A stretch of 60,788 nucleotides of DNA from a virus: IMG/VR virus record IMGVR_UViG_3300037070_008166, positions 1 to 60,788 of that record; one strand, written 5' to 3'. Shown in pieces: positions 1,882 to 18,473 of the stretch. Numbering within the stretch: position 1 is the first letter of the stretch; each line of letters starts with the position of its first letter. The notes beneath the pieces were generated by a model. The model saw nothing but the letters and a program-made list of their open reading frames with translations. It did no database searches and was not told where the DNA came from. A program made the position numbers and the translations under genes.

Positions 1882-4800
1882 GCAAATCCAAGAAGAGCAA
1901 CGGACACACGGAGCCGACGCCGGAAATGCGTGCGGCGATGGCCAAGCAATTGCGGGCCGCGACTACCTCTGAGCTGCTTCAGCGCTTCTCGTTCATGCGC
2001 CAGGCGGGACTGGGCTTCGATGGTGCCCGCGACTACTACGAGGTGCTTGGTTACGATCGTGTCATCACGACGAAACAGTATCGTGACGAGTATGCACGTG
2101 GTGGGATTGCGAAGCGCATCGTGGAGGCGTTCCCGAAGGCGACGTGGCGTGGTGGCGTGGAATTGTTCGAAGACGAGGACCCAGAGAAGTCTACCGAATT
2201 CGAGAAAGCCTGGGACTCGATCAACCAGCGACTCAACGTCTGGAACATCCTCTACCGGGCGGATGTGCTCGCGGGGCTGAGCACCTTTTCCGTCATCCTG
2301 ATTGGAGCGGAGGGCGAGCTCGACAAGGAATTGCCGAAAGGCAATCCGGACAAGTTGCTCTATCTGACTCCGTTCCTGGGTGGTGGGAGCAGCCTGAACA
2401 ACCGCAACCAGATGACGGCGATCGACACGGATGCGGCCGTTTCGGAACTCGAGATCGACACCGCGTCCAAGCGATTCGGCGAGCCGAAGACGTATCAACT
2501 GAAACGACTGGACATCACGTCGCTCAAGCTGACGAAGCCGATTCACTGGTCCCGGATCATTCACATCGCGGAAGGGTGCCTGGACGACAACATCAATGGC
2601 CAGCCCACCCTCGAGAACATCTGGAATCTGCTGCAGGATTTGCTGAAGGTCACGGGTGGTGGCGCGGAAGCATTCTGGTTGCGTGGCAATCAGGGCATGC
2701 ATCTGAACATTGATCCCGCCATGTCGCTCGAGGACACGAAGAACACGGTCGAATCGTTGCGCGAACAGGCCGAGGCATACAAGCATCAGATCACGCGGTG
2801 GATGCGGACTCGTGGCGTCGAGATCAATACGTTGGGCAGTGACGTCGCGAACTTCGGTCCCTCGGCTGAAGCGATCCTGACCCAAATCGCTGGGAGCAAA
2901 GGCATTCCCATGCGCATCCTGACTGGCTCCGAGCGCGGCGAGCTCGCCAGTTCCCAGGATGCGGCGAATTTCAATACGCAAGTCTATGATCGTCGCACCG
3001 GCTATGCCGGGCCAATGATCGTGCGTCGGCTGGTCGATCGTCTCATCGAGTATGGCTATCTCCCGAAGCCCATAGAATACGACGTGAAGTGGGCGGAGAT
3101 CGAGACGATGTCCGAGATCGAGAAGGCACAGGGCGCGAAGGCGTGGGCCGATGTGAATGCGGCGTCCATGGATGCGATCGGTCAGCCGGTCTACACTGGT
3201 GCAGAGATCCGCGAGCACTGGACGGGCCTGGAGCCACTCGACGATGCGGCGGTGCAGGAAGTGCTCGACGCGAAGAAGGCGCTGCTCGAAGCCACCACAC
3301 CGGAACCGCCGGAACCTGTCGCGGTTCCCGCGCCCGCGCCCGCCCCCGCGAAGGAGCCATTTCCACGTGCGGCCATGAGTGGTCCGCATTCGCTGGCCAG
3401 CACACAGATTCAGTTGCCTCCTGCGCTGGCTGCGAAGATCTTCGATGTGGGCCGACAGATCCCAGACGCAGAGCTCGCGGAGATGGGCCGGGAAGACGAC
3501 GCGCACATCACCGTGAAGTATGGGCTGAAGTCGGACAACGTCGAGGAAATCCGCGATGTGCTTGCTGATGCTGGCCCGATTCAAGTGACCTTGGGTCCGT
3601 TGGCCGTGTTCAGCCGACCGGAACATGACGTGCTCTATGCGTCGGTGGACAGCCCCACGCTGCACACGTTGAACAGCCGCATCGACGCGACGGTCGAGAC
3701 GGAGCCATCAGAGTTTGACTACACACCACATGCAACCATCGCCTACCTGAAACCGGGCGAGGGCGCGAAGTATGCGGGCAACATGATGCTGGACGGGGAG
3801 ACGGCCACGGTGTCGTCCGTGTTGTTCAGTCCGTCGCAGGGTGACCAGAAGATTCTCGTGTCCACGTTGCGGGCCGCGGAACTCAACGACCCCGAACTGC
3901 TGCGCATCCTGGCCGACGCGGAAGAATGCGGGGCGACGGAGGTCGTCGAGGCGATTCGCGCAGCCGGTGGACCGGGATCCGGTCATCACGGGCATTCCGG
4001 GCGCAAGGGTGAAGTGGGTGGCAGCACCAAGGAGGGCGACACAGGTCTCGGGTATCCCGCACCCATGAGTCTGTTCAAGACCAGGTCGTTCCAGGTGTCT
4101 GAGCTAGGTGGAGCGCGTCGTTTCATGTTGCACCCCAAGACGGGGACCGCGGTGTTTGGTGCACTAGGTCATGATCCGTCGTCCGGCACCCATGCTGAGG
4201 ACTTGGCGAATTCCGGTGCGAAGGAGCCATTCGATTCGTTCGAGCGTGGCTGGATCAGTGCAGAAGATAAGGAACTGATTCTATTCGATCGCGCCGAATA
4301 TCTTGCGGCCGATAACATCGAGACCATCGACGCTGAAGATCGACGATACGAAGCACTCCAGCGGTTGGTCAGCGCGGGGATGACAAAGGACTGGACGATC
4401 GCCGCGCCCGACGATGCCGGTGCCGCGAGTTTCTCGCGCCCACTCGGGCGAGCGTATCCTGAGCTGTTCAAGAAGATGCGCGGATTGGGTGGCGCGGGAT
4501 CTGGACATCACGGTCACAAAGGCCGACCGGGTGAAGAAGGCGGATCCGCCAAGGAGGGCGACTCTAATGGCGCACCTCTTAACAAATCCGACGAGGCACG
4601 AATTACGAAGTGGATCAGTGCTGGTGGTGGTGAGCCGTGGAACGTGCCAACGGACAAGGCATTTCAGCGACTCCGCGATCCGAAGACTCCACAGGGCAAA
4701 GCGATGGCCGTAACGCTCGACAAGTTGCCCGCATTCGAAGGCACTGGTTTTCGAGGCATCAATCTTTCCGATGCGGAACTGGCCAAACTGTCTGAACAGA

Positions 4801-5978
4801 GGACGATGGTTCTGTCGAAGCACGATAGTTTCAGTACGAATCGTGGACAGGCGGAAGAGTTCGTCAACCCTGAATCACGTGTGTCCACCGTGCCGGTAGA
4901 ACTCAGTTCTACGAAGGTGAAAGAAAAGCCATCGTGGCTGTATCCGGAGGGACGTATCCGGGAGGACATCAAGTGGGGTTCGAAGAAAGTCACAGCAGGA
5001 CCAAAGGCGAAGACGAATGGTGTGCTGATCAAAGCGTCTGGGGTGTTCGCGGATGCTCGGGGAATCTTTGGGTCGGGTGAGGATGAGATTATCGCGAAGG
5101 CGGGGTCTCGATTTACAGTCGACAAGATCAGCAAGGTGCGGGGCACTACGATCATCCATGTGTCGCAGTCAAAGATGCGCGGTGCGGAAGGTGAAGAGAT
5201 CCTGATTGATCTCGGCGGTCCGGGCAGTGGTCATCACGGACATGAGGGCCGTCCCGGGCAAGTGGGTGGGAGTAGCGCGGAGGGCGGCTCAGTCACGAAC
5301 CGTAGTGGTCACGAGTTCCGGGCCAAAACTCAGGTGATGCATCAGCTCATCCCGCAGCGCGGACAGGTCCAGTCGATTGAAGACGGCAAGTTGCGCGTGC
5401 GATGGGAAGGTGGTAAGGAAGAGATCGTCTCACCGAACATGGTCATGGCCGTGAATGTTGAGACCGAGCGGAAGCAACACGAGGCGGCAGCGAAAGAGTC
5501 TTCGCGCGAGCGGGCGAAGGAAACGGAAGACGACGATTTCTATCAAGGCTTCGGTCCTTTGAGTCGGTCTGAGCCTGGGTCTGTGAAAGATCTCCCGGTC
5601 TATCGCGGCGGGGTGATCACCCACAGCGCGGAGGTCACGTATCACACCACGAATCGCGAGATGGCCGAGTCGTACGTGCAGATGTCCAACGATCGCTTCG
5701 GCGAGGGTGGGGCGTTGCACGAATCGAAGCTGACGATCGACAAGCCAGCCCCGGAAGCCGTGATCCAGAAGATCGCGAAGTCCGTGGGCATCGACAATGC
5801 GTTCTACACGCCCGCGAGCGTCTTCGATGCGGAGATCCACGGCAAGGGTCCTGTCAAGGAACTGGTCACGGAGCTGAAGAAGCAAGGCTACGACGGCACC
5901 GTGCTCACGGACATCGCCTACGGCAAGGAAATCGAGGACAAGGCGTACATCAAATTCCGAGGAGCTACCGATGCCTGA
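1875..5978 (+). CDS. Portal polyprotein: DUF1073-type portal + Acb1-like 2H phosphoesterase + ADP-ribosyltransferase-like domains
   Basis: 1367 residues, about three times a normal portal. Residues 1-470 match the DUF1073 (HI1409-type) portal, the DNA entry ring at one capsid vertex. After a Pro/Ala-rich hinge (about 474-495) comes a 2H phosphoesterase with paired H-x-T motifs at H544-I-T546 and H619-A-T621, as in anti-CBASS Acb1. Three copies of a linker of form GGPGSGxxGHxGRPGxVGGS start near 698, 872 and 1114. Between the first two is an unrecognised domain. Between the second and third is an ADP-ribosyltransferase-like domain (R960, S985-F-S987-T, E1069-D-E1071). After the third is a small beta-rich segment and a second ART-like domain (R1244; Y-H-T-T-N at 1256; G-Y-D-G at 1338). 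Portal and 2H calls are strong, ART calls moderate. Processing or delivery is inferred. Confidence 0.85.
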   Translation: MVSKSKKSNGHTEPTPEMRAAMAKQLRAATTSELLQRFSFMRQAGLGFDGARDYYEVLGYDRVITTKQYRDEYARGGIAKRIVEAFPKATWRGGVELFEDEDPEKSTEFEKAWDSINQRLNVWNILYRADVLAGLSTFSVILIGAEGELDKELPKGNPDKLLYLTPFLGGGSSLNNRNQMTAIDTDAAVSELEIDTASKRFGEPKTYQLKRLDITSLKLTKPIHWSRIIHIAEGCLDDNINGQPTLENIWNLLQDLLKVTGGGAEAFWLRGNQGMHLNIDPAMSLEDTKNTVESLREQAEAYKHQITRWMRTRGVEINTLGSDVANFGPSAEAILTQIAGSKGIPMRILTGSERGELASSQDAANFNTQVYDRRTGYAGPMIVRRLVDRLIEYGYLPKPIEYDVKWAEIETMSEIEKAQGAKAWADVNAASMDAIGQPVYTGAEIREHWTGLEPLDDAAVQEVLDAKKALLEATTPEPPEPVAVPAPAPAPAKEPFPRAAMSGPHSLASTQIQLPPALAAKIFDVGRQIPDAELAEMGREDDAHITVKYGLKSDNVEEIRDVLADAGPIQVTLGPLAVFSRPEHDVLYASVDSPTLHTLNSRIDATVETEPSEFDYTPHATIAYLKPGEGAKYAGNMMLDGETATVSSVLFSPSQGDQKILVSTLRAAELNDPELLRILADAEECGATEVVEAIRAAGGPGSGHHGHSGRKGEVGGSTKEGDTGLGYPAPMSLFKTRSFQVSELGGARRFMLHPKTGTAVFGALGHDPSSGTHAEDLANSGAKEPFDSFERGWISAEDKELILFDRAEYLAADNIETIDAEDRRYEALQRLVSAGMTKDWTIAAPDDAGAASFSRPLGRAYPELFKKMRGLGGAGSGHHGHKGRPGEEGGSAKEGDSNGAPLNKSDEARITKWISAGGGEPWNVPTDKAFQRLRDPKTPQGKAMAVTLDKLPAFEGTGFRGINLSDAELAKLSEQRTMVLSKHDSFSTNRGQAEEFVNPESRVSTVPVELSSTKVKEKPSWLYPEGRIREDIKWGSKKVTAGPKAKTNGVLIKASGVFADARGIFGSGEDEIIAKAGSRFTVDKISKVRGTTIIHVSQSKMRGAEGEEILIDLGGPGSGHHGHEGRPGQVGGSSAEGGSVTNRSGHEFRAKTQVMHQLIPQRGQVQSIEDGKLRVRWEGGKEEIVSPNMVMAVNVETERKQHEAAAKESSRERAKETEDDDFYQGFGPLSRSEPGSVKDLPVYRGGVITHSAEVTYHTTNREMAESYVQMSNDRFGEGGALHESKLTIDKPAPEAVIQKIAKSVGIDNAFYTPASVFDAEIHGKGPVKELVTELKKQGYDGTVLTDIAYGKEIEDKAYIKFRGATDA

Positions 5979-6126: not shown

Positions 6127-8900
6127 TGGCCGACACCGATACGAAGATTACGATTGACGAGGACCACCTCGTTGTGGCCGGCGGACCGGGCAGCGGGAAC
6201 CACGGCCACAAGGGGCGACCGGGGGAAGTCGGTGGATCGGCCGGGGATGGTGATTCCGGGCATCGTGGTGTCGATGGACGTGAGACCAAACGATTCACGT
6301 ATTCCGATGGTCGGCACACCGATGTCAAGGAAGCGCCCGGAAAATTCGATAGCAATGGCGAGCGGGAGTTCCAGCACGAGGGTATGACCGTCTACGAAAA
6401 GAAGGGGATGCCCTATCTCAAATCCGACAACGACATCCACAAGCAGTCGGAGACGTATCGCCGGGCGTCACAGGTCACCCGCGATAAGTTCAAAGGCACT
6501 GCCCATTACAACGATGGGGCGAAGGTCGGCGCGGAGGGTAATTCACTGACCCACTTCGTAGACGATCTCAAGGATATGCTGGATTCTCAAGACCAACATG
6601 CGTGGCTCGCCGGTCATGCGGAAGAGTACTTTAAGGAAGAAGTCCGCAACCCAAAGAGCTTCGACGAACGCAAATACAAACGACTGGAGCACGACGCGTA
6701 CGACGAACTGCCCCGCCTCCTCCACCTCGCGGGCGCGACCGGGAAGGTGCGACGCGAGATGCTCCATGGCCGTCCGCACATCGTGGTGCCGGTCGTCGCC
6801 CTGATGGAAGGCGTCATCTCGCCGGTGAACGCGGGCGGGCTGGAGTTCGTGCCGCTGGCTACGTTGCAGAAGGCGGCAGCGTCCTGGAATGGACGGCCCG
6901 TCACGCTCGGCCACCCGGTGAAGAACGGGCGGCAGTGCTCGGCGAACGCACCGGACATTTTGACCACGCACTACCTGGGCCAGATCTTCAACTCCCATGT
7001 GGAAGGCAAGAAGCTGCTCCAAGAAGCGTGGATCGACGAAGCTCGGGCGAAGGACCTCGACGCATTGATGCTCCAGCGGCTGTTGGAAAATCAGCCGGAG
7101 GAAGTCAGTGTGGGGGCATTCGTCCACACTCTCGAACAGCCCGGCACTTTCCACGGCAAAGCGTATGGCGTGACCTGGTCGGAGACGATGGGCGATCATC
7201 TCGCTTTCCTCCCCGGGAAGCGTGGCGCGTGCAGTATTGCAATGGGTTGCGGCACCCACCGGGCCGCGGAGGAAATGCCAATCATTCATCAGGTGCACGA
7301 CGACTACTTGGAAATCCTCGGTGGTCCTGGCTCCGGGAACTTCGGGCACAAAGGTCGGCCTGGTGAGGTAGGTGGATCGGCGGATGGTGGCGGCGAGGGT
7401 GGATCTGGTAAAGTCAGTGGCTACTCCCTGGTCAAAGAACAAGACGGCAAGGTGCAGGTCATTTCCACCGGCCACACCAAGGCGGAAGCCATTCAGGCGT
7501 CGCTCAAATTGCGAAAGACGCAGGGTGACGACTATCACGATGTGGTCAGCCCAACCGGTCGCAACATCGAGCACAACACGTTGAATGATCGTGATCAGGT
7601 GATCGCCAAAGAAGGTCGACCGGCCGAACGACCCGCGTATCAGATCGATGACGAGGGCAATATCTCGAAGATTCCTCAGCCACGTGATCCAGGTTATGTT
7701 CCACCACTTGGAGACGATGAGTCGGTGGATCTGGATGATGATACCCGAGCGACTGGAAAGCTTGGCGAAGAAGTTCAGATGAAGGGAAGTCATCTACCTG
7801 CCAGAGTGACAGCAGTCGACCGTGATCGAGTTGAAGTTGAGCACGAGACGTCGGTCTATGGGCGGGTGACTGTGAAGGAGTACACACCCGAAGAATTCAG
7901 AAAGAAGTTTCGACGACTGGAGCACGAGATGAAGTACAAAGACTGCGCCGCGTGCGATGGTTCCGGCACCAAGGACGGCAATCCCTGCGAGACCTGTGAC
8001 GGCGAAGGCCGACTCAAGACGGCCGAAGACGAGGGCGAATGCCTCTACTGCCTGGGCTCCGGCGTCAACGCGGACGGCACGGAGTGTGAAGATTGCGGCG
8101 GGACGGGCATGAAGAATCTCGAGGAGGCCAAGCCCAGTCTGATCAAGGCGGCGATGGCGTTTCTCAAATCATTGGGTGGCCCTCATCCTTCATTTCTCAA
8201 GCTTGCTAAATCAAGAAAATTGGAGCACGACGCGGAAGTGGTCGAGCTCGTCCAGGAAGAGATCACAGAATCTGCGGACACGATCGCCGCGGAAACCCCT
8301 GCTGAACCATCGGCAGAAGAAGTCGATCGCATTCTCACCGAAAAAGCAGCGGCAGGTGAAGCCGCATTCAAAGCAGCGTGTCGCTGCGAGGAGAAGCACA
8401 TGAAGCCCGAAGAGAGAAAGGATCTGATCGGAAAGCTCGTCGTGGACAAGCACAGCGGATTCACCGCTGGCGACGAGAAGATGCTGGAAGCGGCATCTGA
8501 CGAGCGCCTCGAGTCGTTCCGAGTTGCCGCGGAGTCGCGGGCCAACACGGAGCGCGATTTGAAAGCGGCGGCAGACAGGAAGCTGACGGCAGCGGAGTTC
8601 ATGGAAGTGGCTCCGCCCGAGATCAAGACACTCATCAAGCGGCAGGAACGCCAGGAGACGGAGATGAAGGCCGCACTCATCACCGAACTCAAGGCCGCAC
8701 AGAGCGAGTACAGCGAGGCGGAACTCAGCGTCATGGCGGTCGAGGATCTCGCCCGCATGGCCCGCGTCGCGAAGGTCGAGATCAAGACCGACTACAGCGG
8801 CAAGGCCCTGCCGAAGATGGTCGCCGCGGAAGAGGACGACTACACTCCGCCGAATCCCTACGAGAAGGGGATCAAGGCGCTGCAGCAGGCGCGGGCGTAG
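6126..8900 (+). CDS. DUF2213-type prohead protease with flanking linkers, DnaJ-type zinc finger and helical scaffold-like tail
   Basis: 924 residues from the ATG at 6126, which overlaps the preceding stop; the 37 codons upstream in frame lie in that gene. Linker copies occur at residues 19-38 and 399-418. Residues about 206-382 match DUF2213, ending in DHLAFLPGKRGACS. H263 in TLGHP and S328 in EEVSVG are reasonable His/Ser catalytic candidates for a herpesvirus/HK97-like prohead protease (inference). Residues 607-662 hold four CxxCxGxG units (CAACDGSG, CETCDGEG, CLYCLGSG, CEDCGGTG), the DnaJ zinc-finger pattern. The last 200 residues are charged and helical, as in scaffolds. Its place before the decoration and capsid genes fits a maturation protease-scaffold. 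Confidence 0.75.
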   Translation: MADTDTKITIDEDHLVVAGGPGSGNHGHKGRPGEVGGSAGDGDSGHRGVDGRETKRFTYSDGRHTDVKEAPGKFDSNGEREFQHEGMTVYEKKGMPYLKSDNDIHKQSETYRRASQVTRDKFKGTAHYNDGAKVGAEGNSLTHFVDDLKDMLDSQDQHAWLAGHAEEYFKEEVRNPKSFDERKYKRLEHDAYDELPRLLHLAGATGKVRREMLHGRPHIVVPVVALMEGVISPVNAGGLEFVPLATLQKAAASWNGRPVTLGHPVKNGRQCSANAPDILTTHYLGQIFNSHVEGKKLLQEAWIDEARAKDLDALMLQRLLENQPEEVSVGAFVHTLEQPGTFHGKAYGVTWSETMGDHLAFLPGKRGACSIAMGCGTHRAAEEMPIIHQVHDDYLEILGGPGSGNFGHKGRPGEVGGSADGGGEGGSGKVSGYSLVKEQDGKVQVISTGHTKAEAIQASLKLRKTQGDDYHDVVSPTGRNIEHNTLNDRDQVIAKEGRPAERPAYQIDDEGNISKIPQPRDPGYVPPLGDDESVDLDDDTRATGKLGEEVQMKGSHLPARVTAVDRDRVEVEHETSVYGRVTVKEYTPEEFRKKFRRLEHEMKYKDCAACDGSGTKDGNPCETCDGEGRLKTAEDEGECLYCLGSGVNADGTECEDCGGTGMKNLEEAKPSLIKAAMAFLKSLGGPHPSFLKLAKSRKLEHDAEVVELVQEEITESADTIAAETPAEPSAEEVDRILTEKAAAGEAAFKAACRCEEKHMKPEERKDLIGKLVVDKHSGFTAGDEKMLEAASDERLESFRVAAESRANTERDLKAAADRKLTAAEFMEVAPPEIKTLIKRQERQETEMKAALITELKAAQSEYSEAELSVMAVEDLARMARVAKVEIKTDYSGKALPKMVAAEEDDYTPPNPYEKGIKALQQARA

Positions 8901-8939
8901 TCCGCACCCACCCAGTCACACAGTTCAGGAGACACAGAT

Positions 8940-9374
8940 ATGTCGATCACTCGGTACGACCCGAACACGATCTTCCTGGGAGGGGACCGGACGCAAATCG
9001 GCGACCTCGCAGTGAGTGAAGCCCTCACGCCCGGCATGCTTGTCGAGCGATTCAACAACGGTGGCATCATCCGGTGGCGGAAGGCGACCGCCGATATCGA
9101 TGGTCCGCCGGCCATCATCACCAATCAGTCGATGCTCAACTTGGGCGTCGATGACGACTACGCCGCTGGCGATCTGGCGGAGGTTTCCATTCTGCACAAG
9201 GGTGCGACGGCCTGGGCGCTCATCGCGAGCGGACAGAACATCGCCGCTGGTGTGCTGCTCGGCAGTGCGGGCGACGGCACGCTGAAGGCCGGAGCCACCG
9301 TGGCTCGGTTCACCGCACTCGAGAACAAGCCCACTGTCACCGTCCTGACGCGCATTCGCGTCGAGGCACTGTAA
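8940..9374 (+). CDS. Capsid decoration / structural cement protein
   Basis: 144 residues directly upstream of the major capsid gene, the usual place for a decoration protein that binds the capsid lattice. The sequence is beta-rich with phrases typical of the cement-like group: ALTPGMLVERF, YAAGDLAEVSILHKG and SGQNIAAGVLLGSAGDGTL. No membrane or catalytic motif is seen. The start is preceded by CAGGAGA. The family assignment is by pattern and context. Confidence 0.7.
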   Translation: MSITRYDPNTIFLGGDRTQIGDLAVSEALTPGMLVERFNNGGIIRWRKATADIDGPPAIITNQSMLNLGVDDDYAAGDLAEVSILHKGATAWALIASGQNIAAGVLLGSAGDGTLKAGATVARFTALENKPTVTVLTRIRVEAL

Positions 9375-9376
9375 CC

Positions 9377-9396
9377 GACGCCTCGGCGTCAGGAGG
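9377..9396 (+). promoter_or_regulatory. Hairpin abutting the capsid ribosome binding site
   Basis: GACGC (9377-9381) pairs with GCGTC (9386-9390) across the tetraloop CTCG, and the strong Shine-Dalgarno AGGAGG follows directly. A compact hairpin touching the ribosome site of the most highly made virion protein could protect the mRNA 5' end after processing or help ribosome standby. This is inference from structure and position. Confidence 0.4.
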
Positions 9397-9402
9397 AACG
9401 CG

Positions 9403-10479
9403 ATGTCCGAAAAGCGATTCACCGTAGCGGGGAAAGCCAGCCCGCTCAACGACGTGGTCATGCGAGCCATGCAGGAGACCGGCAAGTGGTCGGTCCCGGC
9501 AATGCGCTCGCCGGGGTTCCGGAACCTGGAGCAGATGCTCCAGTCCGATCCCACATTCCGCGCCGCAGCTCCACTCTCCGAGCGCGCCCAAATCGTGCTC
9601 GACAACGCCGTCGTCGAAGTGGGCCTGGACCGGCTCACGTTCGTCGCCGACATCTTGTCCGCAGGGCTGACGTACAATCTCAGCGACCCGCTGAGCGTGA
9701 CGCAGCTCGAATGGTACAAGACCAACAAGATCGGTGCCGCGCAGCGCACCATGAGCCCGTCGGCTCGCGGTGAGAACAAGCTGCCGGACCGTCTGCCCTC
9801 GCGCCTCCCGGTGTACCTGACGATCGACCAGTTCGAATTGGATATCCGCACGTTGCGCATGTCGCAGCGCGTCGGCCTTCCGCTCGACACGGCGATCATC
9901 AGCCAGTGCACGCGGTCGGTGAACGAGGCCATCGAGGACGCGGCCATCAACGGCGCGACCACGTTGGACGGTCAGGAACTGGCCGTGGACGGCTACTCGG
10001 CTCCCGGGTTGCTCAACGCACCGGATGCCGAGGCGCAAGCGTTGACGGCAGCGTCCTGGGACGTCACGCCAGTGGGTGCCACGATCTACGCCGAAGTGCA
10101 GGCGGCACTCGCGAAGCTCCGCGCCAACAAGCGGTTCGGCCCGTATCGCATGTACGTGCCGGTCGAAGTCGGTGCGGCGCTCGACTCGGACTACGACACC
10201 GTGTCCGGCTCGCGTGGCCTTTCGATTCGGGAGCGACTCCTGAAGATCGAGGGACTCCAGGCGATTCGCACGGCGGATCTCATGCCGCCGACCAAGGTCG
10301 CCTTCGTGCAGATGACGTCGGATGTCATCGACATGGTGGTGGGCCAGCCGCCGACCGTGATTCCGTGGACCTCGGTCGACGGTTTCACGTTCCACAACCT
10401 GATCATGGCCATCATGATCCCGCGGGTCCGCTCGGACTACGACGGGAACAGCGGCATTTGCATCGGGACGATCGCGTAA
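9403..10479 (+). CDS. Major capsid protein, HK97-fold, encapsulin-like
   Basis: 358 residues forming the capsid shell. The position after the protease and decoration genes, the length and the pattern fit an HK97-fold protein of the encapsulin/linocin-like group: an N-terminal arm, a helix-rich region (FELDIRTLRMSQRVGLPLDTA), ALAKLRANKRFGPYRMYVP for a spine-helix/P-domain strand, and a C-terminal strand IMAIMIPRVRSDYDGNSG. There is no long scaffold (delta) region at the N-terminus, consistent with scaffold functions residing in the protease protein. Strong AGGAGG ribosome site. Exact family needs a profile search. Confidence 0.85.
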   Translation: MSEKRFTVAGKASPLNDVVMRAMQETGKWSVPAMRSPGFRNLEQMLQSDPTFRAAAPLSERAQIVLDNAVVEVGLDRLTFVADILSAGLTYNLSDPLSVTQLEWYKTNKIGAAQRTMSPSARGENKLPDRLPSRLPVYLTIDQFELDIRTLRMSQRVGLPLDTAIISQCTRSVNEAIEDAAINGATTLDGQELAVDGYSAPGLLNAPDAEAQALTAASWDVTPVGATIYAEVQAALAKLRANKRFGPYRMYVPVEVGAALDSDYDTVSGSRGLSIRERLLKIEGLQAIRTADLMPPTKVAFVQMTSDVIDMVVGQPPTVIPWTSVDGFTFHNLIMAIMIPRVRSDYDGNSGICIGTIA

Positions 10480-10488
10480 CATCCACAG

Positions 10489-10523
10489 CAGGAGCCACTA
10501 TCGATTCCCGGTAGTGGCTCCTG
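10489..10523 (+). terminator. Strong hairpin after the capsid gene
   Basis: CAGGAGCCACTA (10489-10500) is perfectly complementary to TAGTGGCTCCTG (10512-10523), giving a 12-bp stem with an 11-base loop, 10 bases after the capsid stop. No U-run follows, so it is either a partial terminator or an mRNA-stabilising end that raises capsid over downstream products. The same GCCACT/AGTGGC stem core recurs at 11801-11837. Confidence 0.5.
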
Positions 10524-10548
10524 TCGATTCTTCGTGGGGGAGGATCCT

Positions 10549-10782
10549 ATGGAAAACGAATCCGAGAAGTCCACGCCAGTCACACCGAAGCTCGATCCTC
10601 TCCGTCGGGTGCTCATCCCGATTGAGAAGAAAAACATCTACGGCGAGAAAGTCTTCAAGACCCTGGACCAGACGACATACATTCGTGATCCGTATACGAA
10701 TCAGATTCGTCGAGTTGGCCCGAAGAAATTCGGGAAAGCTGCGAAGAAGGCAGCGAAGAGGGAAGCATGCCGGTCACGCTAG
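10549..10782 (+). CDS. Small basic head-region protein, unknown
   Basis: 77 residues from the ATG at 10549, chosen because GGGGGAGG lies about six bases upstream; a longer in-frame start at 10534 overlaps that site. The N-terminus is acidic and the C-terminus very basic (KKFGKAAKKAAKREACRSR), with a central DPYTNQIRRVGP segment. No family is recognised. It sits between capsid and connector and overlaps the latter by 16 bases, so a head-completion or minor virion role is plausible. Confidence 0.65.
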   Translation: MENESEKSTPVTPKLDPLRRVLIPIEKKNIYGEKVFKTLDQTTYIRDPYTNQIRRVGPKKFGKAAKKAAKREACRSR

Positions 10783-11345
10783 TCACCACGGTCGCTGGGG
10801 CGACGTCGAATTCCTACGCGACGCAAGCGGAGGCGGATGCGTATTTCAACGCCCGCCTTCCACTGGAACCGCCGTGGGAAGATGCGGATGATCCGACGGC
10901 AGCGTTGGCCACGGCGACGAGGGTGCTGGATTCGTTCGTCCAGCCACTTCGGATTCTGGTGCGCGGCGACGGCGGAGATTTCTACATCACGCGGCGACAG
11001 TGGACCGGAGCTCCCGCGACCACGACGCAACGACTTGCGTGGCCACGCACGGGAATGTACGACAAGAATGGCAATGCCATTCCGTCGAACGTCATCCCGG
11101 AAGATCTCAAGTTTGCGCAGTCCGAACTCGCTGGACTGCTCCTCATCAGTGATACGACACTCGACAATGCGGTGCGCGTCGGCGGGATCAAATCCGTGAG
11201 TGCGGGCAGCGTGTCCGTCAGCTTCAAGGACATGATTGAGCAACACGTGCTCCCGGAGTTCGTGTGGTTCCTCATGCCGGCGAGCTGGTTCACAGATGAG
11301 ATCCTCACCCCAGCTCGACCGGCACTGTTTGACGTGGTGTCGTAG
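10767..11345 (+). CDS. Head-tail connector (adaptor) protein
   Basis: 192 residues. The opening SNSYATQAEADAYFNAR and the following helical bundle are typical of the phage adaptor group often labelled DnaT-like in databases. It is thought to bind under the portal as the first connector ring. RLAWPRTGMYDKNGNAIP in mid-protein also fits that group. Position after the capsid gene is as expected. Confidence 0.7.
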   Translation: MPVTLVTTVAGATSNSYATQAEADAYFNARLPLEPPWEDADDPTAALATATRVLDSFVQPLRILVRGDGGDFYITRRQWTGAPATTTQRLAWPRTGMYDKNGNAIPSNVIPEDLKFAQSELAGLLLISDTTLDNAVRVGGIKSVSAGSVSVSFKDMIEQHVLPEFVWFLMPASWFTDEILTPARPALFDVVS

Positions 11346-11353
11346 GAGACTAC

Positions 11354-11785
11354 ATGAACATCAATGTTCACATCCGGATTGAAAGCGCCAAATCGGATGA
11401 GATCCTCCAACAATTGGATGCGCTGAACACGAAAGTGAGCGTGATGGCTATGGCTCTGAAGGACATGAACGAACTGCTCGACGAACTGAACGTCTACACC
11501 AACAAACTCGGCGTCGCTGCCGAGGCTCAGGCTGCAAAGATCACCGAGATCGGTGAGGACCTGGACAAGCTGATCGCCGAGACCGACGACACGGCAGTCA
11601 AGGCTCGCCTCCAGGCGCACCGCGACACGTTGGCGCAGCTCGCGGCGAACGAGGAAGCCCAAGCGGAAACGTTGGCGAATCTGGCCGCGAAGCGGAACGA
11701 CCCGCTGCCTCCGCCGGTCGAACCTCCGGTCGAACCTCCGGTCGAACCGCCAGTGGAACCTCCGGTCGAACCGCCAACCGAGTAG
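11354..11785 (+). CDS. Coiled-coil protein with C-terminal PPVE repeats
   Basis: 143 residues. Residues 1-115 are a heptad-like helix (QLDALNTKVSVMAMALKDMN), pointing to a coiled-coil oligomer. The C-terminus is five or six tandem PPVE units encoded by a 12-base repeat (11707-11785), probably an extended stalk. No homologue is recognised; trimeric minor virion proteins in head regions have this look. The DNA repeat makes copy number prone to slippage. Confidence 0.6.
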   Translation: MNINVHIRIESAKSDEILQQLDALNTKVSVMAMALKDMNELLDELNVYTNKLGVAAEAQAAKITEIGEDLDKLIAETDDTAVKARLQAHRDTLAQLAANEEAQAETLANLAAKRNDPLPPPVEPPVEPPVEPPVEPPVEPPTE

Positions 11786-11800
11786 GATTTCCATGCGTGG

Positions 11801-11837
11801 GGCCACTGACATCATGGACACCACGGTGTCAGTGGCC
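11801..11837 (+). terminator. Inverted repeat after the coiled-coil gene
   Basis: GGCCACTGACA (11801-11811) pairs perfectly with TGTCAGTGGCC (11827-11837), an 11-bp stem with a 15-base loop. A competing inner palindrome GACACC/GGTGTC lies within the loop. No U-run follows. The core resembles the hairpin after the capsid gene, suggesting a shared post-transcriptional role. Confidence 0.45.
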
Positions 11838-11850
11838 TATCGTGGTGTCG

Positions 11851-12012
11851 ATGAAGATCATCGTGTACGACAAGAGTCGGAATCAGTGGCGGTTCTTCTA
11901 CGTCATTCCAGAAGACGATAGCTATGTGGCCAAGTGCCGCAATGGCATTCATCAGTTTCAGCCGACGTTCTTGCGCTGTTCGTGTGGTGAGGTAACGAAA
12001 TGGGCCTCTTAG
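11851..12012 (+). CDS. 53-residue cysteine-containing protein, possible zinc ribbon
   Basis: Starts at the ATG at 11851, just after an inverted repeat, and overlaps the next gene by 13 bases. The C-terminal half has CRNGIHQF and LRCSCGEVTKW, a C-x3-H...C-x-C arrangement that could bind one zinc ion. Similar short cysteine segments end the glycosyltransferase at 15842-17185. Function unknown; possibly a protein-interaction module in the connector region. Confidence 0.55.
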   Translation: MKIIVYDKSRNQWRFFYVIPEDDSYVAKCRNGIHQFQPTFLRCSCGEVTKWAS

Positions 12013-12383
12013 GCATTCTTCGTTCGGGGGTCAAGACGATCGACAGTGTCACGAAGGACCTCCAGTCTACCGTGACATACAAGCGATTTGTTTCCCAGAC
12101 TGCGAAGGGTGTCAAGACCTATGCGTCACCCATCACGATGAAGGCGATCGTGGATCGGAAGCAACAGCAAGTGCGCACCGGAAATGGAATTCTCAGTCTG
12201 AGTCGGGCGACGATCACGTTCGTAGACATCAAGAAGTTGCTCACCGTTACGAACAATCTGGGAATTCGCGACAGCGACATCATCATTCTGCCCGACGGCA
12301 CGACCGGGCCGATTCTTTCCCTCTCGGGATTTCTTGACCGTGGCACAGAAGTGCCAGTGGCGACGGAGGCGTTCCTCGGATGA
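12000..12383 (+). CDS. Head-closure / neck protein, putative
   Basis: 127 residues, beta-rich, between the adaptor and the tail-completion gene at 17182. The size, the phrase KGVKTYASPITMKAIVDRKQQQVRT and the closing strands match the general look of head-closure (SPP1 gp16-like) proteins, which plug the filled head. The motif evidence is weak, so the call relies on genome order. ATG overlaps the previous gene; the stop overlaps the next gene as ATGA. Confidence 0.6.
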   Translation: MGLLGILRSGVKTIDSVTKDLQSTVTYKRFVSQTAKGVKTYASPITMKAIVDRKQQQVRTGNGILSLSRATITFVDIKKLLTVTNNLGIRDSDIIILPDGTTGPILSLSGFLDRGTEVPVATEAFLG

Positions 12384-12751
12384 AGATCGAGCATCGTCGC
12401 GTTGACTTCAAGGATTCTCGAGGGACCATTCGGGATATCTTGAAAGACCGCACCGTGGACAACGTGACGGAAATCGTCACGGCGAAAGGCACAGTGCGCG
12501 GCAACCATTACCATCGCCAGGCGCTGGTCTACATCTACATCCTGGAGGGGTCATTCAACGTCTTTTCGCGTGAGCATGAAGAAGCGCCAGTACAACAGGC
12601 GCATGTTGCAACAGGGGATTTGGTCATCTTCTTGCCGTACGATCTCCATGCACTGGTCGCTCTGGAAGACAGCCGGTTTCTACTTCTTGCCTCCGGTCCG
12701 CGTGGTGGGGAGCATACGGTGGCGGAAGTGCTCTACGAGGTGCCGGCATGA
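12380..12751 (+). CDS. Cupin, WxcM/FdtA-like sugar isomerase or epimerase
   Basis: 123 residues, a single cupin barrel. Motif 1 is GTVRGNHYHRQ with paired His, and motif 2 is GDLVIFLPYDLHALV, together a metal-binding double-stranded beta-helix. The opening RGTIRDIL and TEIVTAKG resemble WxcM/FdtA-type enzymes that isomerise dTDP-4-keto sugars. The following aminotransferase would use such a keto sugar, so the pair likely makes an amino sugar donor. First gene of the inserted glycosylation cassette; the exact reaction is not certain. Confidence 0.75.
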   Translation: MKIEHRRVDFKDSRGTIRDILKDRTVDNVTEIVTAKGTVRGNHYHRQALVYIYILEGSFNVFSREHEEAPVQQAHVATGDLVIFLPYDLHALVALEDSRFLLLASGPRGGEHTVAEVLYEVPA

Positions 12752-13863
12752 TTCCTGTCCATGCGCCGGTCTTCGACCCGGAGGATTTCCACCTCGTGCA
12801 GTTCGCCCTGAACTCCGGTGAGATTTCTGGCACGTTCGGTCGATTCATCACGGAGTTCGAAGAACGCTTCGCGGAATTCTGTGGCTGCAACTTCGGCATC
12901 GCCGTGAGCAGTGGGACCACCGCCTTGCATCTGGCTGCGGCCGTGCTGGGAATTGGTCGTGGCGACGAAGTCCTGATGAACGCGTGTACGAATATCGCGA
13001 CGGCGAATGCGGTGGTTCAGCAGGGTGGGATCGTCGTTCCGATTGATTCGGAGCCTGACACCTGGAATATGCGTGTAGATCTGCTTGAAGATGCGATTAC
13101 CTCACGCGCCCGCGCGATCATGCCGGTGCACATCTACGGTCATCCCGTTGATATGGATCGGGTCATGGAAATCGCGCACAAGTATGAGCTTCGCGTGATC
13201 GAAGATTGCGCGGAAGCCCACGGCGCGGAATATCGCGGACGACGTGTGGGCAGCTTCGGCGACTTCGGTTGTTTCAGTTTCTACGCAAACAAAGTGATCA
13301 CCACCGGCGAAGGTGGAATGCTCGTGACGAACGATCCGCAGCTTGCGGAGCAGGCCCGCAGCTTGCGCAATCTCGGATTTGGAATTCCTCGCTTCGTTCA
13401 TCATGAGATGGGCTTCAACTACCGCATGACGAACGTCCAGGCCGCGATCGGGGTGGGTCAGCTGTCGAGGATTGAACAGATCATCGAACGCAAGCGCCAT
13501 ATTGCGCAGATGTATTTGGATCGACTGGCTGACGTGCCTGGTCTACGACTGCCTGTCGAAGCAGACTACGCTCGTTCGGTCTACTGGATGTTCGGCGTGG
13601 TGTTGGAACCAGAGTTCGGTGTGCACCGTGACGATTTCGCGGCTGAGCTGCTAGACCACGGTGTGGACACGCGCACCATGTTCTGCCCGATGAATCAGCA
13701 GCCGGCGTTGCTCAAACGTGGTGCAGTGAAACGGCTCGCGTGCCCGGTCGCGGACTTCCTCTGGACGAACGGCTTGTATCTTCCCAGTGGAAATGGTCTG
13801 ACGGAAAGTGAAATTGACGGGATCTGTCACCTCGTTCAGGAGATGAGCCCGGCATGCGCGTGA
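12748..13863 (+). CDS. DegT/DnrJ/EryC1/StrS family sugar aminotransferase
   Basis: 371 residues, full length for this PLP-dependent family, which transfers an amino group to nucleotide keto sugars. Visible signatures are SSGTTALHLA, EDCAEAHGAEYRG and the PLP lysine K182 in YANKVITTGEGGM, with GFNYRMTNVQAAIG downstream. It overlaps the cupin by four bases and the next glycosyltransferase by ten, so it is one operon. Perosamine-synthase-like enzymes are the nearest group by pattern, but the sugar cannot be fixed from sequence. Confidence 0.92.
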   Translation: MIPVHAPVFDPEDFHLVQFALNSGEISGTFGRFITEFEERFAEFCGCNFGIAVSSGTTALHLAAAVLGIGRGDEVLMNACTNIATANAVVQQGGIVVPIDSEPDTWNMRVDLLEDAITSRARAIMPVHIYGHPVDMDRVMEIAHKYELRVIEDCAEAHGAEYRGRRVGSFGDFGCFSFYANKVITTGEGGMLVTNDPQLAEQARSLRNLGFGIPRFVHHEMGFNYRMTNVQAAIGVGQLSRIEQIIERKRHIAQMYLDRLADVPGLRLPVEADYARSVYWMFGVVLEPEFGVHRDDFAAELLDHGVDTRTMFCPMNQQPALLKRGAVKRLACPVADFLWTNGLYLPSGNGLTESEIDGICHLVQEMSPACA

Positions 13864-14609
13864 ATATTGTGGTGGCTCGTGGTGATATCGAGTGGATTTG
13901 CGGCCGAATGGCTCGTGAGCTCGCGGCACGACTCCCCACGTTCGGCATTTCCGCATCGATCAACGGAGAGCCCGGTGATCTGGAGTACCAGCAAGTCGTC
14001 TACGGCCCACCTCTGACTCGACCGGCCATCGGATTGTTCACGCATGGACGTGAGCGTCCATATCAATTCGGAAAAGATTACGATGGGGCGGTTTGTATGA
14101 ACCGAACCATGTTACAATACCTGAACGAAGCCGGGGCGATAATCCCTCAGGTCATTGAGCAGCCAGTGGATTCAGTCTTCAACAAGACACCTGTGTTCGG
14201 TGTGGCGGGCCGTGTCTATGGTGATGGCCGCAAGGGGGAGTTCCTCGTCGCGAAGATGGTGGCCGCTGGCTATCGCGTGATTGCATGGGGACAAGGTTGG
14301 CCATGCGAAATCGTGTCGTCGGATGTGGCGTTCTTACCGGCATTCTATTCGATGATTGATTACTACGTGGACACGTCCAGTGATGAAGGTGGCTGCACCC
14401 CGGCATTGGAAGCCATGGCGAGTGGAAAACCTGTGATCAGCCACACGATTGGCGTGGACCGCCCGGTGCTGGCCTACATGCGGCACGATTGGCCGAGCCT
14501 GGAACGACTTCTGATTTCGTTGACCAGTCCGCGCACGTATGACCAGTGGGCTGCAGACCATGCGGAATACTTCCGGCGAGTGCTCATGGTGAAAGGCATC
14601 GCGGCGTGA
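13854..14609 (+). CDS. Glycosyltransferase, GT4-like (GT-B)
   Basis: 251 residues, short for a GT-B enzyme. The C-terminal donor-binding half is clear: SSDEGGCTPALEAMASGKPVIS carries the E-x7-E signature of GT4 enzymes. The N-terminal half is compact and may be truncated relative to bacterial GT4 proteins. Its start overlaps the aminotransferase and its stop overlaps the next start as GTGA. Probably uses the sugar made by the two preceding enzymes. Confidence 0.8.
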   Translation: MRVNIVVARGDIEWICGRMARELAARLPTFGISASINGEPGDLEYQQVVYGPPLTRPAIGLFTHGRERPYQFGKDYDGAVCMNRTMLQYLNEAGAIIPQVIEQPVDSVFNKTPVFGVAGRVYGDGRKGEFLVAKMVAAGYRVIAWGQGWPCEIVSSDVAFLPAFYSMIDYYVDTSSDEGGCTPALEAMASGKPVISHTIGVDRPVLAYMRHDWPSLERLLISLTSPRTYDQWAADHAEYFRRVLMVKGIAA

Positions 14610-15235
14610 CCTTTTCCATCGCGATCCGCACCGTGCCGAAGCGATTCCCGCTGTTCTCGGAGCTGTTTTATCGTGCTGCTTGCATGATCATGGACGACTC
14701 AGTGCTCGGGATGAACATCAGCGCAAATCCAGAGGTGGCGCCGAATGAAAACGGATGCCGGGCATTGGAAGGCGCGGCGGCATTCGGGGCGGATTGGGTC
14801 ATCTTCTTGGAAGACGACGCGGGCCTGATCCACAGTTTCTTGCCAAACGTCAAATGGTGGATTGGAAACCACGCGCAAGACGATGTGCATATCTACCCGC
14901 TGGGCTGTCAGTACGACCACTGGGAACCAGGAGCCACCGCGTGGAAATATCCCATTCCGATGTTCTACTGCAGCGTGGCGATGATAATTCGTGGAACACA
15001 GGTGCCGTCACTCGTGGCGTATTTTCGCCAGAACAGTCACGTGGCGCAAGGCTTCGACCTGATGTCGGGTCATTGGCACGAGTCGATTTCCAAGAGTCCG
15101 TGTCTGCTCACGCCGATCCCGTGTTTGGTGGAGCATCTCGGTGATGACTCCACACTGATTGAAGGACGCCCGGAGCGAAACGTCGTAGGTCGCTTCCGTG
15201 GATTCAAAGGCTACGACTTTTCCTACGTGGGGTAG
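14606..15235 (+). CDS. Glycosyltransferase, GT-A type, putative
   Basis: 209 residues from a GTG start at 14606 that overlaps the preceding TGA; an upstream ATG at 14546 lies well inside the previous gene and is rejected. A Rossmann-type start TFSIAIRTVPKRFP and the acidic metal-binding ADWVIFLEDDAG are typical of GT-A enzymes. ALEGAAAFGADW before the DD motif also fits. The acceptor is unknown. Confidence 0.7.
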   Translation: MTFSIAIRTVPKRFPLFSELFYRAACMIMDDSVLGMNISANPEVAPNENGCRALEGAAAFGADWVIFLEDDAGLIHSFLPNVKWWIGNHAQDDVHIYPLGCQYDHWEPGATAWKYPIPMFYCSVAMIIRGTQVPSLVAYFRQNSHVAQGFDLMSGHWHESISKSPCLLTPIPCLVEHLGDDSTLIEGRPERNVVGRFRGFKGYDFSYVG

Positions 15236-15239
15236 AGGA

Positions 15240-15845
15240 ATGGCAGAAAACATCGGCACTGCAGAAAACAACGAACGCTTCCGCGAATATCCGTACAACA
15301 TTCGTGAAACGTGGTGGAACGACATGCAGCGCGAGAAGATGCGCCAGATGGCCAGTCGTATTCGTGAAGGCGAATGGGTGGCTGATGTTGGCTGCAACGC
15401 GGGCTATCTTCCTGAGTTCTTACCAGTTGGCTGTGTGGCGCACGGCATCGACCTGTCACCGGCACTCGTGGAGCGGGCGCGCGAGCGTGGCTTGTATCGT
15501 TCGGTGGCGGTGGCTCCGGCGGAAGAGCAGCCGTTTGACGACAAGTCCATGGACGTCGTTGTGATGGCCGGCGTGATCGAATATCCATTCGATCCACAGC
15601 AGGTGCTTCGCGAGTGCGCTCGCGTGGCGCGTCGTATCGTGATCGTGGAAGCATGCCACGAAGACGGAATCTGGGGTGCAGAGCGTATCCCCATCCACTC
15701 GCACATGGTTCGCAGCTATAACGAAGAAACGCTGGTCAAAGAAGTCGCGACAATCGGCCGAGTCACCTGGATTCATGTGGTCAACGGCGACGGCGTCGGA
15801 CTGCACGGCCAGCCGCAGCACCGTATCGTTGAGGTGACACTGTGA
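15240..15845 (+). CDS. Class I SAM-dependent methyltransferase
   Basis: 201 residues from the ATG at 15240 (GAGGA just upstream). Motif I is VADVGCNAGYLPEF, then an acidic strand end in GIDLSPALVERARERG, PAEEQPFDDKSMDVVVMAG as the motif IV region and LRECARVARRIVIVE. This is the Methyltransf_11 arrangement for small-molecule or sugar methylation. Within a sugar cassette, methylation of a sugar or glycan is the likely role, by context only. Confidence 0.88.
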   Translation: MAENIGTAENNERFREYPYNIRETWWNDMQREKMRQMASRIREGEWVADVGCNAGYLPEFLPVGCVAHGIDLSPALVERARERGLYRSVAVAPAEEQPFDDKSMDVVVMAGVIEYPFDPQQVLRECARVARRIVIVEACHEDGIWGAERIPIHSHMVRSYNEETLVKEVATIGRVTWIHVVNGDGVGLHGQPQHRIVEVTL

Positions 15846-17185
15846 AGTCCCTGCTCTGGGTCGGGGACGCTGGTGTCCCGAGCGGTTTCGCGAAAGCCAC
15901 CCATGAGATCTTGAACCATCTCCTGGATGATTTCCGCGTTACGGTGTTGGGCATCAATTATCGTGGCGATCCTCATGCATATCCGTACGAAATTTGGGCC
16001 GCACTTCCAGGTGGCGACTACTTCGGAATTGGCCGTCTGATCTGGATGTGCGATTTGCTCAATGGCCGTGATGGAAAACCACCTGATGTCATCGTGTTGC
16101 AGAACGATGGCTGGAACATCCCGCAATACATGCAGCTGCTCCGCAAGAAGTTACCCAGCGGCAAGTGGGCGTTCCCTGAATACGCGAACATCCCGGTGGT
16201 AGCGATCGTGGCCGTCGACGGCAAGAATTTCCAAGGCAAGTGGCTAGATGGCGTGAGCATGGCCATCTTCTGGACGCAGTTCGCGTTGGACGAAGCACGT
16301 CGTGGTGGCTACACCGGCGAAGCAGCAGTCATCCCACTGGGTGTGGACTTGAACATCTACAAACCAGTGCCGCAAGCGGAAGCGCGGGCGCGTCGGTTGG
16401 ATCCGTCGATGAAGGACTTCTTCATTGTCGGCAACGTTAATCGCAACCAGCCCCGCAAGCGATGGGACTTGATGATCAAGTACTTCGCGGCGTGGATCAA
16501 GCAAGTGCCCCGCGGAACAGAAGAGGAGATTGCGACGTCCCGAGTGGTCATCCGAGACGCGATGCTCCTACTGCATACAGCCCCCACTGGCGATACAGGG
16601 TGTGATGTCGCTCAGCTGGCCCGCTACTATGGAGTTGCGGAGTTTCTCGCCGTGGCGGAGCCCCAGGCGTTTTACGGGATCAGCGAAGAAATGCTTGTGG
16701 ACTTCGTGAACTGCTTCGACGTCAATGCATCGACGTCGCAGGGAGAGGGATTCGGGCTGACCGCCCTGGAATCGATGGCGTGCGGCAAGCCCAACGTGTT
16801 GGGCGACTGGTCTGCGTATGGTGAGTGGGCGAAGGGAGCCGCATGGTTGGTTCCGTGCAAGACCACGCACATCGGCCCTCCCTACACCAACGTCATTGGC
16901 GGGGTGCCGGATCAGGAAGAGTTCGTCAAGGCACTGAATCGGTTGTACACGGACAAGCGCACGCGAGAGATCAACGGATTGGCTGCGCTCGAGCGCGCCC
17001 GCGAGCCGCAGTTCCGATGGGAGAATATCGGGAAAGCCTATCAGCTGGCGTTGGCTTCAGTGCTTTGCGAACACAAGTGGATTGACATGACCACTCTCAC
17101 AAATCGAGGCATTAGTACATCGCAGTGCAGTCTTTGCAAGCGAATTCGTACGGAGAAAATCGTTGAAGAGGAAGTCGCCCAATGA
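15842..17185 (+). CDS. Glycosyltransferase, GT4-like, with C-terminal zinc-ribbon segment
   Basis: 447 residues with both Rossmann domains. The N-terminal domain has WVGDAGVPSGFAKATHEIL, and the C-terminal domain carries EGFGLTALESMACGKPNV with the E-x7-E motif. The last 45 residues add a C-x-H...C-x2-C cluster (CEHKW and SQCSLCKRIR), a possible zinc ribbon not usual in the family. Start and stop overlap both neighbours by four bases. Last gene of the cassette; tail genes resume at once. Confidence 0.85.
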   Translation: MKSLLWVGDAGVPSGFAKATHEILNHLLDDFRVTVLGINYRGDPHAYPYEIWAALPGGDYFGIGRLIWMCDLLNGRDGKPPDVIVLQNDGWNIPQYMQLLRKKLPSGKWAFPEYANIPVVAIVAVDGKNFQGKWLDGVSMAIFWTQFALDEARRGGYTGEAAVIPLGVDLNIYKPVPQAEARARRLDPSMKDFFIVGNVNRNQPRKRWDLMIKYFAAWIKQVPRGTEEEIATSRVVIRDAMLLLHTAPTGDTGCDVAQLARYYGVAEFLAVAEPQAFYGISEEMLVDFVNCFDVNASTSQGEGFGLTALESMACGKPNVLGDWSAYGEWAKGAAWLVPCKTTHIGPPYTNVIGGVPDQEEFVKALNRLYTDKRTREINGLAALERAREPQFRWENIGKAYQLALASVLCEHKWIDMTTLTNRGISTSQCSLCKRIRTEKIVEEEVAQ

Positions 17186-17556
17186 TTGGTGAGGAAGCCA
17201 TGGTGCGGAACATGCTGAAAATCGCAGCAGAGTTCCCGGAGCGTGTTGGAAAGGCTCTGTCTGCCGAAGCCAAGATTGAGGTTCGGGAGATGAAGCGCCG
17301 CACGCCGGTGGACACCACACCAAATGCTCCTCATCCTGGGCAACTTCGTGATTCGATTCATGATCATCCACCGGAACGACTGTTCCGCCGGATTTCCGTA
17401 CTGATCACGACCGGGCCGGAAGCGCCATACGATATCTATGTGCATGAAAATCCTGACGCGATTCATTCGGTTGGACAGTGGCAATTTATGTCGTCCGTGA
17501 TCAACGAGTCGCGATCGTTCATGGGTGAACGAGTTGCCCGACGGGTGAAATTCTAA
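17182..17556 (+). CDS. Tail completion / HK97 gp10-like protein
   Basis: 124 residues. The segment APYDIYVHENPDAIH followed by GQWQFM is the hallmark of the HK97 gp10-like (minor capsid/tail-completion) family, which sits at the head-tail joint. RTPVDTTPNAPHPGQLRDSI upstream also fits. It marks the return to virion assembly genes after the sugar cassette. Confidence 0.8.
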   Translation: MIGEEAMVRNMLKIAAEFPERVGKALSAEAKIEVREMKRRTPVDTTPNAPHPGQLRDSIHDHPPERLFRRISVLITTGPEAPYDIYVHENPDAIHSVGQWQFMSSVINESRSFMGERVARRVKF

Positions 17557-17987
17557 TGTGGCTTGACGAAGTCGCCGCACGGCTCGTCGCGCAAAGTGTC
17601 GGTGTGATGGGCACACAGGCACTGACCTCGAATTCCATCTTCATCGGATCAGCTGCGTTGATTCCGACAGGAGAGGGTGCGGACGGACCATATCTATTGC
17701 TGAAAGATACAGGGGGCTCCGGTTCGGCGAAGACGCAGAACAATACAGCAACTGAGCGACCGACTGGCCAGATTTCCACGCGGGCCAGATCGCCGGTGGC
17801 TGCGTACGACATGGCGAAGGCGGCATACGTGGCTTTGGGTGGCGAGAATGGTTTGTTCAACATCACACTGAGCAGCGTGCGATATCTGAGCCTCGTGGCT
17901 CGGACGATGCCGTCCGACATCGGGCTGGATCAAGAAGCGCGTCCGATGTTTTCGTTCAACATCGACGCGGAAAAACAACCTTCGTGA
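17556..17987 (+). CDS. Tail terminator protein, putative
   Basis: 143 residues between tail completion and tail tube, the fixed place of the terminator that caps the tube and joins the neck. DEVAARLVAQSVG at the start and the paired strands GPYLLLKDTGGSG and ARPMFSFNIDAEKQPS resemble minor-capsid/terminator proteins. It begins at the base where the previous gene ends. Confidence 0.65.
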   Translation: MWLDEVAARLVAQSVGVMGTQALTSNSIFIGSAALIPTGEGADGPYLLLKDTGGSGSAKTQNNTATERPTGQISTRARSPVAAYDMAKAAYVALGGENGLFNITLSSVRYLSLVARTMPSDIGLDQEARPMFSFNIDAEKQPS

Positions 17988-18017: not shown

Positions 18018-18473
18018 ATGACACTTGCCATCAGCGCCCACGGAACATTGGTGGCCGTCCAGTTGACACCGGGCGGCGCATTCACCGATGTGGCCGAACA
18101 GGGCGACATCACACCACCGGCACTGTCGCGTAACGAATTCGACGCGACGACCCAGGAAAAGGACATTGACTCCTACGTCTTGGGCGTGCTTCGTCGTGGC
18201 GCGTTCACGCAGCCACTCAACTGGTTGCCAGACAACGCCACGCATGATCATCTCACGGGCGTCTACAAGCTGATGATCGAGAACACGGTCACCGGCTGGC
18301 GCATCACGTATCCGGACGGAACCAAGTGGATCATGTCCGGTCAAGTTCAGTCGATCACGCCGCAAGCGCCGGTCGACGGGAAGCTGGCAGCCGACGTCAC
18401 GCTTCGTTTCAGCGGGGCCATGCAGATCTTGACGGCACTCGGCGCGATCACGGACATCGGCCTCAGCGCATAG
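18018..18473 (+). CDS. Major tail (tube) protein
   Basis: 151 residues, beta-rich, with AGGAGA before the start. The order terminator, tube, chaperones, tape measure is diagnostic. DITPPALSRNEFDATTQ and TLRFSGAMQILTALG resemble siphovirus tube subunits that stack as hexamers around the tape measure. No extra C-terminal Ig domain is visible. A strong hairpin follows the gene. Confidence 0.8.
   Translation: MTLAISAHGTLVAVQLTPGGAFTDVAEQGDITPPALSRNEFDATTQEKDIDSYVLGVLRRGAFTQPLNWLPDNATHDHLTGVYKLMIENTVTGWRITYPDGTKWIMSGQVQSITPQAPVDGKLAADVTLRFSGAMQILTALGAITDIGLSA

Follow-up and report, generated by a model that had tools for sequence, protein, structure and literature searches.

A sugar-gene cassette in the neck operon of an uncultured tailed phage: a probable virion-glycosylation locus with exchangeable content

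Six sugar-related genes stand between two neck genes in a virus record of 60,788 bases (IMG/VR record IMGVR_UViG_3300037070_008166, analysed in its full length and referred to here as the window), and the question that this locus raises is what a tailed phage would do with such enzymes in the midst of its structural genes. The cassette lies on one strand in the order cupin, DegT aminotransferase, GTa, GTb, methyltransferase (MT) and GTc, where GTa, GTb and GTc are glycosyltransferases (GTs), and is bounded by a head-closure gene (HC) and an HK97-gp10-like tail-completion gene (Ne1). Because the same slot in relatives is either empty or differently filled, and when filled always ends in the same putative attaching enzyme, the phage most likely decorates its own virions with a sugar that can be exchanged. 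The cassette is thus probably a virion-glycosylation locus, exchangeable in content and fixed in its place within the neck operon. The genes concerned are:

12000-12383, plus strand: HC, left flank, head-closure/neck gene (phrog_3881, weak, E 0.034; position; family in 73 loci)
12380-12751, plus strand: cupin, sugar-nucleotide isomerase/epimerase-like (PF14667 above cut-off; FdtA below cut-off)
12748-13863, plus strand: DegT/DnrJ/EryC1/StrS sugar aminotransferase (PF01041, E 1.8e-116)
13854-14609, plus strand: GTa, short GT4-type glycosyltransferase (PF00534 just above cut-off)
14606-15235, plus strand: GTb, GT-A type glycosyltransferase with EDD motif (phrog_854, 5.6e-8)
15240-15845, plus strand: MT, class I S-adenosylmethionine (SAM) methyltransferase (PF08241, 7.4e-16)
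15842-17185, plus strand: GTc, GT4 glycosyltransferase anchoring the slot (phrog_2170, 3.7e-30)
17182-17556, plus strand: Ne1, right flank, HK97-gp10-like tail-completion gene (PF04883, 5.4e-5, above cut-off; phrog_5, 1.5e-6)
17556-17987, plus strand: tail terminator, next in the neck block (PF12691, 1.4e-5, above cut-off)

The late region reads rightward through terminase, portal, a long frame with a DUF2213 domain that is probably the protease/scaffold, decoration protein, major capsid protein, adaptor, neck genes, tail tube and tape measure. An earlier note on this DNA had described six coupled genes, and all six are present on the same strand, the junctions from HC to Ne1 being -4, -4, -10, -4, +4, -4 and -4 bp. 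Neighbour spacing across the cassette is at most 10 bp, and a 4-bp overlap is the usual junction. The starts of GTb (GTG 14606) and MT (ATG 15240) were set downstream of the starts of the longest open reading frames, on the basis of alignment to relatives and of overlap geometry. The guanine-cytosine (GC) content of the cassette (0.56-0.59) is phage-like, and promoter- and terminator-like signals between 8.8 and 19.4 kb are no more numerous than in shuffled sequence.

GTc and the tail-completion protein served as queries to gather relatives, yielding more than 100 viral loci, in which the flanking genes were located with profiles built from the window genes. HC is identified chiefly from its position and its family in relatives because its own profile match is weak; the family occurs at the same place in 73 fetched loci. 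Both flanks are present in 50 distinct loci (copies of the window among them), where the slot is empty in 10, filled in 39 and unclear in one (L121). The assumption that head-closure and tail-completion genes normally adjoin is borne out by the 10 distinct relatives with an empty slot, where HC abuts Ne1 at a spacing of -34 to +12 bp. The filled slots span 1.25-9.96 kb (median 5.6 kb, 7 genes), and in 39/39 of them the GTc domain is the final cassette gene on the Ne1 side, in one case (L035) fused behind GTb. Since GTc itself was the query that brought in many of the filled loci, the fair count comes from the search by tail-completion protein alone. Among its 38 loci the tail-completion gene adjoins GTc in 23, HC in 12 (10 once near-copies are merged) and a contig end in 2, with 1 unclear, and none of the 38 shows other sugar cargo without GTc. 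The isolated Brevundimonas phage MaInes, a capsid relative, shows no annotated sugar gene among its neck genes.

What fills the slot varies widely, with 28 gene arrangements among the 39 cassettes. The full six-gene set of the window recurs in L058 and L123, where DegT (62-64%), GTa (64-67%) and MT (59-60%) are closer to the window than is Ne1, at only 38-47% identity. L007 and L012 present the reverse, with Ne1 59-63% identical to the window but the five cargo enzymes not shared (L007 being a short contig with little upstream sequence); the slot of L012 instead holds GT2s, a methyltransferase and a radical-SAM/B12 protein. On a tree of Ne1, built from few columns, the filled or empty state switches at least five times, three of these being forced by supported branches. 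The cassette had been described as a single insertion, a description that gives way here to that of a recurring locus whose content is exchanged while one member is conserved.

DegT is always paired with the cupin (3 loci) or with a hexapeptide transferase (7). At one cassette position a radical-SAM/B12 protein occurs in 8 loci (among them L012, L022, L023 and L133) and a C-methyltransferase in 4 (L033, L040, L046 and L047), in cassettes otherwise alike, and since the two never occur together, this suggests that they do one task by two chemistries. Bacterial capsule and O-antigen loci give rise to serotypes, and the neck slot may be comparable, as a glycan-type locus in which a constant priming GT is fixed in the operon and sugar-pathway blocks are swapped around it, giving virions of differing glycotypes; we regard the odds on this more specific proposal as even.

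The resemblances of the six enzymes indicate what such a locus could make. The cupin carries a GNHYH motif and a later histidine that are conserved among relatives in the alignment, and its profile is closest to OxdC and to the C-terminal cupin of Cap5F. It had been labelled a cupin isomerase; the FdtA profile gives 16.5 bits, below the Pfam cut-off of 23, and assignment as an FdtA-type 3,4-ketoisomerase was dropped. DegT matches its family profile, and its pyridoxal phosphate lysine (K182) is conserved in the alignment. Its closest solved structures, by sequence and by profile, are the guanosine diphosphate (GDP)-perosamine synthetases 3bn1 and 3dr7, a relatedness that makes GDP-4-keto-6-deoxymannose a candidate substrate. 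The window encodes no GDP-mannose dehydratase, and the keto-sugar precursor would therefore have to be supplied by the host.

In GTa, the GT4 signature is confined to the C-terminal half (PF00534, residues 161-200). Relatives of GTb match phrog_854 at 1.9e-12 and 1.7e-9, and gp110 of phage Che8 matches the same family at 1.1e-99. The structure model of GTb (predicted local distance difference test, pLDDT, 67) finds GT-A folds among its best matches, which lend weak support to that fold because model confidence is low. The model of GTc (pLDDT 89) is best matched by GT4-type structures with a GT-B fold, and its nearest solved relative is chlorovirus B736L (3oy2), which is the best profile match (E 2e-22) with a template modelling (TM) score of 0.80 for the fold. 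Relatives of GTc are encoded by 134 matched viral stretches; in 29 other viral loci the protein is 44-62% identical to the window copy, and its E-x7-E motif (E302, E310) is invariant across viral loci, as are its other motifs. By a hydropathy scan, a simple method, all six cassette proteins are free of convincing membrane segments, and no flippase or lipid-carrier transferase is among them.

Glycosylation of a virion protein is the best reading of this set because the enzymes seem to lack membrane segments, lie in a structural operon and come without a flippase or lipid-carrier partner. From the genes we infer co-expression, acceptor, glycan, order of steps and benefit as follows. The six genes would be expressed together with the structural genes, and DegT, perhaps with the cupin, would aminate a host 4-keto- or 3-keto-6-deoxy nucleotide sugar to an amino sugar, which MT would modify. 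The soluble GTa, GTb and GTc may then work in the cytoplasm, during particle assembly, to build up a short glycan chain on one of the virion proteins. GTc would be the constant step, either a priming transfer onto protein or the addition of a common core sugar, while the remaining genes would define the identity of the glycan and be replaced blockwise between phages. The acceptor is probably an abundant protein, with capsid, decoration and tail tube proteins as candidates by analogy; two of these are located at:

9403-10479, plus strand: major capsid protein, a putative acceptor (phrog_771, PF19774)
18018-18473, plus strand: tail tube protein, a putative acceptor (PF16461, 1.6e-10)

Known systems offer partial parallels. 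Virion glycosylation in phages Che8, Corndog and Myrna likewise involves phage-encoded GTs (Freeman et al., 2023, as relayed in PMC11256854 and PMC12363180), and PMC12363180, which cites Freeman 2023, describes Che8 gp110 and Corndog gp38 as essential for capsid glycosylation. The mycobacteriophage comparison was made with Che8 alone. GTb falls in the same PHROG as gp110 (phrog_854), and gp108 is resembled by GT2 family c2 of the relatives of the window. In contrast to these phages, the window adds sugar-building genes (DegT and cupin) and keeps its cassette, whose content is exchangeable, at a fixed place in the neck; no GTc was found among the three GTs of Che8, and the host would not be an actinobacterium if the Sulfuricaulis lead discussed below holds.

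Chloroviruses (PBCV-1 and NY-2A, with B736L and A64R) also encode glycan machinery for a capsid protein, and B736L has been noted above as the nearest solved relative of GTc, although these are eukaryotic viruses. A nucleotide search of isolated phages with the first 25 kb of the window returned no match. Among the head genes of two isolated phages, Synechococcus phage S-CBS4 (gp014-016) and Pontimonas phage phiPsal1 (gp010-012), there is a GTc homologue together with a methyltransferase and a c1-family GT2. This gene set differs in having no DegT or cupin and in its place, which is either the junction of portal and head gene or that of capsid and neck gene. The earlier note had left the choice between decoration of the virion and a late change to the host surface; the former is clearly the better supported, by the PHROG that GTb shares with gp110, the GTc anchor, the head-gene neighbours in isolated phages and the soluble proteins, and the latter is the weaker.

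Several observations weigh against virion glycosylation. GTb and gp110 are only ~19% identical, with the EDD motif conserved, and the GT genes of Che8 lie at the genome end, outside the neck block, so location alone is no proof of target. B736L, whose preferred ligand is GDP-mannose, has no proven role (PMC4691112, PMC5408694). Relatives of GTc (35-39%) also occur in Verrucomicrobia contigs (L134-L141); in the two contexts that were read (L134 and L137) the gene lies beside protein kinase and pyruvyl-transferase-like genes, and is chromosomal rather than prophage-borne. Across phages, the identities of GTc do not co-vary with those of Ne1 (rho 0.04; 0.49 with HC). Co-variation as an argument for a GTc-Ne1 partnership was dropped on this value, which shows no sign of matching between the two and therefore does not single out Ne1 as acceptor.

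Of the other explanations, the one that survives best is late modification of the host surface, in which lipopolysaccharide (LPS) core or O-chain sugars would be altered in the cytoplasm, keeping competitors from adsorbing and progeny from binding to debris. LPS clusters typically contain aminotransferase, cupin and GT4 genes, and WaaG is an example of a soluble GT4 enzyme that works on surface precursors in the cytoplasm, but the six proteins include no flippase, lipid-carrier transferase or convincing membrane segment. The gtrABC serotype-converting clusters of temperate phages resemble the cassette in using phage GTs to alter a sugar coat. The gtr proteins are membrane proteins, which are lacking among the six of the window, as are the gtrABC components themselves (polytopic glucosyltransferase, flippase and bactoprenol transferase), and PF00535, the GT2 family of the bactoprenol transferase, is absent from the whole window with the control working. 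GTs in pelagimyophages have been interpreted as O-chain modifiers (PMC7029224), and cargo that differs between phages is what would be expected if it tracked host surface types. Against this stand the constant place that the cassette holds within the neck operon even in diverged phages, where one GT is always kept, and the shared family of GTb and Che8 gp110. On balance we find a host-surface role unlikely.

Far less probable is that the slot is a hot spot for mobile sugar genes, where insertion between neck genes is harmless and the cassette a neutral passenger. The high variability of slot content (28 arrangements in 39) and an endonuclease-like gene in the slot of L104 fit such a view, but the recognisable cargo is mostly sugar chemistry, the base composition of the cassette matches the phage, and GTc is held at 44-62% identity in the 29 other viral loci with its motifs invariant. 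The mean identity of GTc (0.53) also exceeds that of the neighbouring neck proteins (0.45 and 0.41), a value inflated by the fact that loci were partly chosen by GTc similarity. That the GTs sugar-coat modified bases of the phage genome, as such enzymes do in T-even phages, is very unlikely, since the cassette lies in the late operon away from replication genes, the window has no thymidylate synthase-type hydroxymethylase (PF00303, control working; Tet/JBP, PF12851, gave no match in the window, its positive control being silent too), and we know of no role for DegT and cupin in DNA glycosylation.

Virion glycosylation is itself already known, having been demonstrated in a few actinobacterial phages, while the anchored, exchangeable neck slot looks new; we found no description of it in the literature searched, which leaves out most subscription journals. 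As to the host, a relative with a 71% identical capsid sits in a Sulfuricaulis metagenome-assembled genome, which also holds a 65% identical terminase, and this gives a lead towards a gammaproteobacterial host, subject to binning error. The comparison suggests that virion glycosylation may be common among one group of uncultured tailed phages as well, its genes forming an exchangeable locus with a single enzyme as anchor. GTc beside a tail-completion gene would serve as a sequence marker for candidate glycosylated phages, S-CBS4 is a cultured phage carrying a related gene set, and the question arises of what selects for diversity of particle sugars in environmental phages, where animal antibodies are not expected.

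Some further features of the slot and its surroundings were seen in relatives. L104 has an endonuclease-like frame (957-1445) between GTc and the tail-completion gene, and L012 a gene for a 1157-amino-acid protein (8390-11863) between the tail-completion and terminator genes. In L110, MT, GT2-like, radical SAM with SPASM and GT genes are placed after the tail terminator (9762-13472), and its usual HC/Ne1 slot is empty. L077 (3924-8975), L070 (6208-8990), L056 and L075 hold extra slot cargo with N-terminal hydrophobic segments, mostly without a family match. Elsewhere in the window, 44356-46545 encodes a 729-amino-acid repeat protein without a family match (repeats roughly GAHRASTVQLFAG, DNA repeats 49-170 nt), and a single frame of 1367 amino acids at 1875-5978 joins a phage portal domain (PF06381) to a 2'-5' RNA ligase domain (PF13563).

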